Source of the DNA: Ruminococcus sp.
GTDB lineage: Bacteria; Bacillota; Clostridia; Oscillospirales; Acutalibacteraceae
NCBI GenBank assembly: GCA_017403985.1
Contig: JAFRDE010000031.1
Coordinates: 1 to 64,000, forward strand
DNA length: 64,000 nt
Direction of reading: 5' to 3'
Part shown: positions 61,242 through 62,360 of the stretch, piece by piece
How the letters are laid out: the number at the start of each line of letters is the position of its first letter
Numbering within the stretch: the first letter of the stretch is position 1
Notes under the pieces: generated by a model
What the model was told of the DNA's origin: nothing
Seen by the model: the letters and a program-made list of their open reading frames with translations, nothing else
Databases searched by the model: none
Program-made: the position numbers and the translations under genes

Positions 61242-61712
61242 ATCGTTCTCCTTTCTGCGGTTTGCATCGGTATATCAGATGGTCGGGTTGCGATCGGGTT
61301 GTGATCGGGTTGTGATAATCTCCCTAAATGGGGATAAAAAAACACATACTTACCCTCTCATACTGATATCCAATAAAAAATTCTTATAGATAAATAGTAT
61401 AATACTTGGTCTAAGTACGTGTTAATAAAACATCTGAAAGCCGATTATCCTGTCCGGAATGAGCTTTCGGTTTTCAGAATCATTATTATTCTTATGGTGA
61501 ACCTCCTGTTCGTCTTTGAGCGTCTTCTTTCTTCGGTGCATATCATGCGGGTGTGCTGATCATTCGTTCTGAAACATTCTTATACGGTTATGAAGATGGG
61601 TCGGAAACGGTTCAATTCCCTGATATAATTGTTTTCCTCCTTTCAGGTTGAAAATGATTGATCATTCGTGCCGTGCCCGGTTGGACGGACCGGCTCTTTT
61701 GCAAGTTTATCT
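61242..61712. other. Gene-poor A/T-richer stretch
   Basis: No open frame with a convincing start. The minus strand shows two Shine-Dalgarno-like GGAGG sites (about 61502 and 61630) that lead to no reading frame, so they may be relics of lost genes. The DNA composition is lower in G/C than the rest of the window. Confidence 0.4.
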
Positions 61713-61748
61713 TATCAAAGGGGATATGACGAAAAAGTCATATCAAAA
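61713..61748. repeat. Tandem operator-like element, copy 1
   Basis: Contains a perfect palindrome GATATGAC-GAAAAA-GTCATATC (61723-61744) inside TATCAAAGGGGATATGAC... It is followed 12 bp later by TTGACA. Confidence 0.65.
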
Positions 61749-61812
61749 TAAAAGTTTTGCTTGACAGCATTACGCGTCTGAAAAACGGCGGAACGTTTTC
61801 CGCATACTATAC

Positions 61813-61848
61813 TATCAAAGAGGATGTGACAAAAAAGTTATATCAAAA
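61813..61848. repeat. Tandem operator-like element, copy 2
   Basis: 32 of 36 bases match copy 1, exactly 100 bp downstream. The palindrome is imperfect here (GATGTGAC-AAAAAA-GTTATATC). Again followed by TTGACA. Upstream of the riboswitch promoter by about 190 bp. Confidence 0.65.
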
Positions 61849-62037
61849 AAATTGCTTGACAAAAAACATTTACCCATGTCAGAATGACGCACAAGACGAT
61901 TCCGAAACGCTGCCCCGCGATCTGCTGTTCCGGACAGAAATTCGGGATAAAGGATCACTAACGAATAGAAGACGTTGTATTTGGAATATCCTACAAAAAC
62001 TGCAGAAATTTTTTGGCAATGAATATCATAATTTTCC

Positions 62038-62066
62038 TTGACTTTTTCAGCGATAGATGTTACAAT
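62038..62066 (+). promoter_or_regulatory. SigA-type promoter of the riboswitch-controlled gene
   Basis: TTGACT at 62038, exactly 17 bp, TACAAT at 62061. Transcription would start at about 62073, right before the aptamer. Confidence 0.85.
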
Positions 62067-62072
62067 GAATGC

Positions 62073-62160
62073 AAACAATAGGGCAAAGCCGCTGAAAGGC
62101 GGTGACGCAAAGCTCAGGTGTCTAAATAGTACGCTATATGATCGACCGGCTGCACGATAT
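62073..62160 (+). ncRNA. c-di-GMP riboswitch, class I (GEMM-I)
   Basis: Aptamer core AGGGCAAAGCCGCTGAAAGG (62079-62098), CGGTGACGCAAAGC (62100-62113) and a second stem-loop region ending ATCGACCGGCTGCA. The tetraloop-receptor pattern GAAA plus GACGCAAAGC is typical of GEMM-I. Whether it prefers c-di-GMP or 3',3'-cGAMP cannot be told from sequence. The 3' end of the aptamer overlaps the first terminator arm, so ligand binding is likely to affect termination. Confidence 0.92.
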
Positions 62161-62197
62161 ATTACCGACGGTAATTAGAGTGCAGGCGATTTTTTTA
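62147..62197 (+). terminator. Riboswitch terminator 1
   Basis: CTGCAC (62150-62155) pairs with GTGCAG (62180-62185) around an inner TTACCG-A-CGGTAA, then a run of T's. The 5' arm is part of the aptamer end. Confidence 0.75.
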
Positions 62198-62213
62198 TGA
62201 TAGTGTGTTGTAC

Positions 62214-62277
62214 GATCGACCGGCTGCATCATCAATTACTTTATGTAGTTTTTGTGCAGGCGGTTTTAATTTTTTCT
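62214..62277 (+). terminator. Riboswitch terminator 2 (repeat of the first arm)
   Basis: The 15-mer GATCGACCGGCTGCA (62214-62228) is an exact copy of 62140-62154. CTGCA then pairs with TGCAG at 62255-62259, followed by TTTTAATTTTTT. A second, tandem expression platform. Confidence 0.65.
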
Positions 62278-62360
62278 CATAGTATATAAAGTAAGTTTAT
62301 ATAAATATTGAGTAAGACTTAATCACCCCAAGCAGAAACATTCAAGAAAGGATGATTACG

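Follow-up and report, generated by a model that had tools for sequence, protein, structure and literature searches.

A gene for a surface protein with a signal-peptide-like start lies at the end of the window (the whole stretch analysed, 64,000 nucleotides of a Ruminococcus sp. contig), behind a promoter-like site, one riboswitch aptamer of the c-di-GMP-I (GEMM-I) class and two predicted terminators (Table 1). The aptamer, which starts 6 nt beyond the end of the promoter-like site, gives the sole Rfam match at gathering scores in the whole window and probably senses c-di-GMP. The consensus promoter leading into a GEMM-I aptamer that an earlier note on this DNA had described is thus borne out, with the promoter near-consensus. 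As three sites of the grade of TTGACT-17-TACAAT occur in a 1-kb region (both strands) against 2.2 expected in shuffles, the promoter match alone is weak; promoter-like sequences stand at the equivalent position, as judged by eye, in the two related species (G137 and G134) introduced below. Further upstream, at 61708-61861 of the window, are two 44-nt direct repeats (84% identity, 100 bp apart), each followed by TTGCTTGACA.

Table 1. Features of the leader and of the first gene behind it (window positions)
Feature	Positions	Strand	Basis and details
Sigma-70-like promoter, TTGACT-17-TACAAT	62038..62066	+	10/12 matches; similar sequence upstream in both relatives (by eye)
c-di-GMP-I (GEMM-I) aptamer A (5' half + copy 1)	62072..62157	+	RF01051, 61.4 bits (gathering 35)
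Single 5' half: P2 with GAAA tetraloop, J2-3, P3 5' strand (62111-62122), receptor 5' strand CUAA	62081..62125	+	RF01051 alignment, folds
Copy 1: P3 apical hairpin, receptor strand, arm 1, terminator 1	62126..62193	+	Direct repeat
Arm 1, GATCGACCGGCTGCA, P3 3' strand	62140..62154	+	RF01051 alignment, exact-match scan
Predicted terminator T1: hairpin 62147-62188, U tract 62190-62196 (U7)	62147..62196	+	Fold -20.1 kcal/mol
Copy 2: apical strand (62200-62211), receptor strand UACGA (62211-62215), arm 2, terminator 2	62200..62267	+	Direct repeat
Arm 2, identical to arm 1	62214..62228	+	Possible roles: P3 3' strand (aptamer B), partner of the T1 3' arm (relay), 5' arm of T2
Predicted terminator T2: hairpin 62218-62265, U-rich tail to 62275	62218..62275	+	Fold -22.9 kcal/mol
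Surface protein gene, signal-peptide-like start, 700 aa	62352..64000	+	Start 62352 or 62361; stop at contig base 64454, beyond the window

The following GEMM-I hallmarks are present in the RF01051 alignment: the GAAA tetraloop and its receptor, the interhelical C-G pair, the conserved A's of J2-3 and the C of J3-1. The roles of these residues follow the accessible part of PMC3764141, and their placement onto the window is our own mapping. The window genome (G000) contains five GEMM-I aptamers, three on one contig (C32:62072, described here, 78096 and 91182) and a complete tandem pair at C17:3147/3288; that at C32:78096 precedes a gene for a choice-of-anchor A / pAdhesive_15 protein.

The 3' part of the switch is present twice. 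A 68-nt direct repeat (72% identity ungapped, spacing 74) begins at the boundary of the P3 apical stem and spans receptor strand, P3 3' strand and terminator. Within it GATCGACCGGCTGCA is repeated exactly, at 62140 and 62214, its only occurrences in the window (none on the opposite strand); by our arithmetic, a given 15-mer would recur by chance within 150 nt with a probability of approximately 1.4e-7. The exact copying of the last 15 bases 74 bp further on, noted earlier as a duplicated arm, is therefore confirmed, although the unit is larger: as judged from the alignments, it is the whole aptamer 3' half together with its predicted terminator, and the 5' half (62081-62125) is single. A complete second aptamer in copy 2 was considered and rejected, as in all three species copy 2 alone failed to match RF01051 at E values up to 10. 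With one RF01051 match in the window, the leader also falls outside the definition of tandem c-di-GMP-I riboswitches (two complete aptamers in one leader).

Each copy of the arm heads a terminator of its own, as had been proposed: T1 and T2 are both predicted as a stable hairpin followed by a U tract. The tail of T2, UUUUAAUUUUUU, is interrupted, and its first two U's sit in the T2 stem. A generic terminator scan with a loop limit of 8 nt called neither, so the assignment rests on folding and on the U tracts. The 209-nt region folds more stably than its shuffles (z = -3.87). On these predicted hairpins and U tracts the locus shares with dual-terminator riboswitches of the Bc1 type the succession of one aptamer and two intrinsic terminators; T2, which in that type stays formed with or without ligand, is here predicted to be coupled to the ligand through aptamer B.

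Genes behind the switch

The surface protein shows a weak match to PF18889 (beta-helix; 25.3 bits, below the cut-off of 27). It is followed by genes for a 229-aa lipoprotein, a 730-aa HD-domain protein (contig bases 65597-67789, L251:5598-7790), a 1032-aa protein, a HEAT-repeat protein, a 470-aa family-2 glycosyltransferase (GT2) and two further large proteins. From its match to PF13487 (112.8 bits) and its HD domain, we read the 730-aa protein as a putative HD-GYP protein. The best NCBIfam model for the glycosyltransferase is PgaC_IcaA, at 128 bits against a cut-off of 422, and the series may be an exopolysaccharide-like operon. A HD-GYP protein under the control of a c-di-GMP switch would fit negative feedback.

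The HD-GYP/GT2 part of the series was examined in the window genome, G137 and G134. In the latter two the lipoprotein gene stands directly after the switch, with the remaining genes of the series behind it (74-93% identity) and one exception in G137 (L253, G137:C1), where the homologue of a 747-aa protein is split into two open frames, possibly by a frameshift or an assembly error. The statement that a large surface protein is the controlled gene thus applies to the window genome; in the two relatives the lipoprotein comes first and the longer series follows. The gap between switch and lipoprotein gene is 2.2-2.5 kb, with room for a surface-protein gene, in the window genome and in 18 of 20 relatives whose switch has no arm copy, and < 0.5 kb in G137, G134, G142 and G136. 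Many of the relatives with the longer gap also show a start resembling MKKILSVLLAV, and both features suggest that the surface protein is a frequent neighbour of the switch in the genus.

Distribution among relatives

BLAST searches with 62072-62290 gave matches in 33 of 161 genus genomes. The half-duplication was found at three loci in three species: the window, L034 (G137) and L035 (G134), in each case before the same HD-GYP/GT2 operon. The lipoproteins of the two other species are 79% and 74% identical to that of the window genome. The earlier note would have given up its reading if arm 2 formed no terminator or if no relative had the duplication; T2 is predicted, and two relatives carry the duplication.

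A model (R1) built from the three half-duplicated sequences matched 86 places in 49 of the 161 genus genomes. Only its three source sequences scored 157-171 bits, as follows from its construction, and the next score was 84. After 12 loci lying outside the genus had been excluded, a first regular expression picked out 70 distinct aptamers among the R1 places. The 15-nt arm recurs within approximately 145 nt downstream, at 14-15 of 15 positions, in eight of these: three at a spacing of 70-74 (the half-duplications) and five at 132-141 (complete tandem switches). In the remaining 62 the best recurrence is ≤ 11 of 15. A looser pattern (157 hits, some of them false positives) added no case at half spacing with ≥ 14 of 16 matches, its best other hit being 13 of 16 in L027, on the strand opposite to its aptamer.

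Wider searches gave the same picture. Among the matches listed for R1 in 394 order and 398 family genomes (overlapping sets, strict filters) there was no new full-length high score. The half-duplication was absent, by eye, from five R1 hits of longer span (G335:C20, G424, G456, G187 and G628) and, in arm scans, from G135, G093, G166 and G158 (the first two also by eye). Species genomes were also scanned for GACGCAAAGC..GGCTGC..GGCTGC; this returned at least 118 stretches, with at least 80 loci, of which those with GGC[AG]A upstream were kept. Among the matches listed and kept approximately 15 were GEMM-I-like by eye, and of these only L094, a contig of G137, had a clear half-duplication. These searches thus found no half-duplication beyond the three species.

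Other arrangements of GEMM-I elements were seen in the course of these searches. L232 (G092), L233 (G123) and L227 (G125) carry apparent triple aptamer arrays. The switches of L001, L002 and L009 have, by eye, a different terminator, whose arm hardly overlaps the 3' end of the aptamer. On the minus strand of L142, near position 98, a GEMM-I-like leader contains CGGGCTGCCGA twice, approximately 41 nt apart and the first time within P3; it is possibly another partial arm copy, lacking the receptor strand.

Homologues of the lipoprotein are present in 38 of the 161 genus genomes. In 23 genomes (counted by eye) a riboswitch place and a lipoprotein gene lie on one contig within 2.6 kb; three of these switches are half-duplicated and 20 have no arm copy. 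The three half-duplicated species form a clade with G142, which has no arm copy, in a tree built from 30 lipoprotein rows (support 100/99). The branching order inside the clade is weakly supported, and the tree is compatible both with a single origin followed by loss in G142 and with a single origin excluding G142.

These counts bear on whether the second half is the relic of a former tandem of complete GEMM-I switches, whose second aptamer has lost its 5' half and whose remainder now has no function of its own. Complete tandem units (spacing 132-141) do occur in the genus, one of them in this genome, and 347 doublets are listed in the accessible text of PMC9481103. However, the 20 other switches before the same lipoprotein gene have no arm copy, which favours partial duplication of a single switch, and the half unit has been kept in three diverged species with both terminators predicted to be intact. 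A relic is therefore very unlikely.

Predicted folding and candidate mechanism

The 3' strand of P3 is itself the 5' arm of the terminator, both here and in the single-terminator relatives. From this anatomy an ON switch is predicted, in which the ligand withholds arm 1 from T1. As the default reading, an OFF switch or a locked off state was rejected for the same reason, and the earlier suggestion that tandem terminators sharpen or lock the off state would hold for the ligand-free state only. ON control would be lost with an ordinary second terminator, as aptamer A and T2 can coexist; this is the outcome reported for Bc1. Since two independent terminators leave T2 free of the ligand, the copy would matter mainly by perhaps letting the aptamer re-form and so control T2.

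On balance we lean slightly towards a reading in which either of two 3' halves can complete the same aptamer 5' half, so that each transcript would pass two successive ligand checks. To the fuller mechanism we give roughly even credence: a single ligand pocket would be assembled twice on one nascent RNA, its 5' half being handed from the first to the second identical 3' half as polymerase advances, with the T1 hairpin parked on P3 of the second aptamer and two terminators policed in series. Copy 1 in P3 (aptamer A) would block T1. Once polymerase has passed arm 2, this arm would displace arm 1 from P3 (aptamer B) and arm 1 would close T1, harmlessly at this late stage because the hairpin would lie behind polymerase, on the lengthened P3. 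Arm 2 held in P3 would then block T2. With ligand, P3 would presumably hold on to an aptamer strand at each of the two decision points, and T1 and T2 would both be read through. Without ligand both terminators would form, and leakage would be approximately the two readthrough probabilities multiplied together. The surface protein gene and the HD-GYP/glycosyltransferase genes behind it would thus be expressed at high c-di-GMP.

Folds of the growing transcript are consistent with such a hand-over (sets of three values refer to G000, G137 and G134, in this order). When the transcript has just grown beyond arm 2, the minimum in all three species has this arm paired to the P3 5' strand and the two apical strands paired to each other, with T1 nested on the extended P3. 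With ten P3 pairs fixed, aptamer B has -48.7, -47.0 and -48.0 kcal/mol at this point, free minima being -48.7, -49.0 and -50.0 and aptamer A -38.5, -38.7 and -37.1 kcal/mol. Strict aptamer B therefore exceeds the minimum by 0, 2.0 and 2.0 kcal/mol and is 8-11 kcal/mol more stable than aptamer A; that a register variant of P3 beats the strict aptamer by 2 kcal/mol in G137 and G134 counts against aptamer B.

At the T2 decision point, partition functions give -59.9, -60.5 and -62.8 kcal/mol for aptamer B and -59.3, -59.9 and -60.0 for aptamer A with T2. Forming the aptamer instead of the terminator costs a similar amount at the two points, 6.7, 8.9 and 9.7 kcal/mol at T1 and 9.9, 9.7 and 8.4 at T2. 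With a saturating ligand bonus, predicted occupancy of T1 is approximately zero in all three species, and that of T2 is 0.28, 0.25 and 0.01 when aptamer B may form, against 1.00 in each when it may not. Two points here go against aptamer B: half relief of T2 requires an assumed bonus of approximately 8-10 kcal/mol, and two species keep T2 at 0.25-0.28 even at saturation. These fold and occupancy figures are equilibrium values with an assumed ligand bonus. Kinetic control is common in riboswitches of this kind.

The same calculations bear on a relay antiterminator, in which the ligand holds arm 1 in aptamer A and the freed 3' arm of T1 pairs with arm 2, preventing T2 with no second aptamer. A hairpin of -12.7 kcal/mol between the T1 3' arm and arm 2 is possible, with no U tract after it, and before T2 is made this pairing accounts for much of the aptamer-A ensemble in G137 (-40.4 of -40.7) and G134 (-38.7 of -39.0). 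Once T2 has been made, however, aptamer A with the relay (-51.7, -52.7 and -50.7 kcal/mol) lies 7-9 kcal/mol above aptamer A with T2 in all three species, and the receptor strand conserved ahead of arm 2 is not required for a relay. We consider it unlikely.

If copy 2 were a mere terminator arm, drift would be expected in the eight bases that precede its stem. The stretch from the receptor strand, itself no part of the T2 stem, through the arm comprises 18 positions; copies 1 and 2 disagree there at 1, 2 and 1 of them, and all four differences fall at two sites, the inserted receptor base and a Y that pairs with G. The loops of T1 and T2 differ at 10, 10 and 14 of 22 positions and the apical strands at 4, 3 and 6 of 10. 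Arm 1 carries at 62144 and 62153 the bases that we take to be the interhelical G83 and the ligand-contact C92 of Vc2; copy 2 presumably retains both, together with G79, in all three species on the same mapping. The evidence from G83 is only partly independent, since a G-U pair formed by this base could also close the T2 stem. G79, G83 and C92 are among the conserved residues listed in the accessible part of PMC3764141.

This conservation also bears on a plain dual terminator, in which T1 is controlled by the ligand and T2 is an uncoupled duplicate that lowers basal expression or masks the ligand response. Bc1 of Bacillus thuringiensis is a precedent (as far as described in the accessible text of PMC11218506), and T2 is stable and compatible with aptamer A. 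However, an uncoupled arm would be free to drift with its partner, yet arm 2 matches arm 1 at 14-15 of 15 positions and receptor-strand positions outside the T2 stem have been kept; in addition, a constitutive T2 would hold the downstream genes off. Such a layout is rather unlikely. That the repeat is a DNA element, for example the binding site of a regulator, with the RNA pairing incidental, is suggested by the binding of Zur to the dual-terminator DNA of Bc1 (PMC11218506, accessible text), but the start of the copy coincides with a strand boundary of the aptamer, and the changes within it are confined to two sites. This explanation is extremely improbable.

Among 62 genus aptamers (22 distinct sequences; the three half-duplicated ones set apart, five misfits to the pattern excluded, and the pattern itself fixing A, G and G at three other positions) the inserted receptor base is U in 50 and C in 12. 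In copy 2 it is C in the window, U in G134 and G in G137, the last counting against aptamer B. The apical strands of copies 1 and 2 can form 12, 10 and 9 of 12 pairs, numbers reached by 0, 3 and 22 of 300 shuffles, and this pairing exceeds neutral drift (P = 0.007, 0.51 and 0.03) except in G137. The energy of aptamer B was matched by 15, 9 and 100 of 300 shuffles, so that G134 does no better than shuffles. When apical strands were swapped between species, the native strand was the best partner in one of three (G000), which argues against species-specific coevolution. In the three rows available for covariation one pair had changed on both sides, a number reached by 346 of 500 column shuffles, which amounts to no covariation signal. 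Arm 2 being a copy of arm 1, it pairs with P3 automatically, which likewise weighs against aptamer B.

Comparison with known systems

Single, tandem and dual-terminator GEMM-I switches are already known; the half-duplicated form is placed here as a variant of the c-di-GMP-I class, with double assembly as its probable, still conjectural mechanism. The single-terminator switches of the genus share the arm between aptamer and terminator in the same way, have a very similar aptamer and stand before the same lipoprotein gene, but possess one 3' half and one terminator.

Tandem (pseudo-cooperative) c-di-GMP-I riboswitches, of which 347 doublets and 12 triplets are described in the accessible text of PMC9481103, likewise sense c-di-GMP repeatedly in one leader, with a more digital response expected. 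They contain two or more complete aptamers, whereas the window has one 5' half and two 3' halves, and the arms are 70-74 nt apart in the half-duplications against 132-141 in the complete tandems of this genus. No shared-half layout was found in the accessible text of that survey, and none with a duplicated half-aptamer among the titles and abstract openings listed from an open-access library. The survey, as far as its accessible text goes, set aside some candidates with overlapping coordinates as false positives; other half-duplications may therefore have been missed.

A recurring arm sequence is also found in the arm/anti-arm/arm GEMM-I leaders (for example Moorella, L073 and L131), where GGCTGC returns downstream as it does in the window. 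In the Moorella type, by eye, the second GGCTGC is the 3' strand of the terminator before the U tract (an OFF layout), whereas the second copy in the window is a 5' arm. Several Firmicutes GEMM-I leaders (L073, L078, L087, L090, L116, L122 and L131) show, by eye, this OFF layout, with GGCAGC between the copies of GGCTGC. Two tandem terminators in an attenuator leader, as here, are described for rimP in some Gammaproteobacteria; this leader is not a c-di-GMP riboswitch, and the accessible text of PMC2965389 describes no duplicated aptamer half in it.

If the double assembly is correct, half a duplication suffices for a riboswitch with two checkpoints, and there is a simple evolutionary path from a single switch to a sharper one of low leakage that needs no second complete aptamer. 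The hand-over of a strand during transcription would also become directly testable.

Among the closest known systems is Bc1 of B. thuringiensis, where a single long expression platform likewise places two intrinsic terminators behind one GEMM-I aptamer. In the accessible text of PMC11218506 the terminators of Bc1 are 28 bp apart, and the ligand unfolds the first while the second stays, so that there is no net response. Compared by description rather than by sequence, Bc1 has no copy of the aptamer 3' half in that text and its T2 persists with ligand, whereas T2 of the window begins with such a copy. If the double assembly holds, the half-duplication would show how a dual terminator can stay responsive, unlike that of Bc1.
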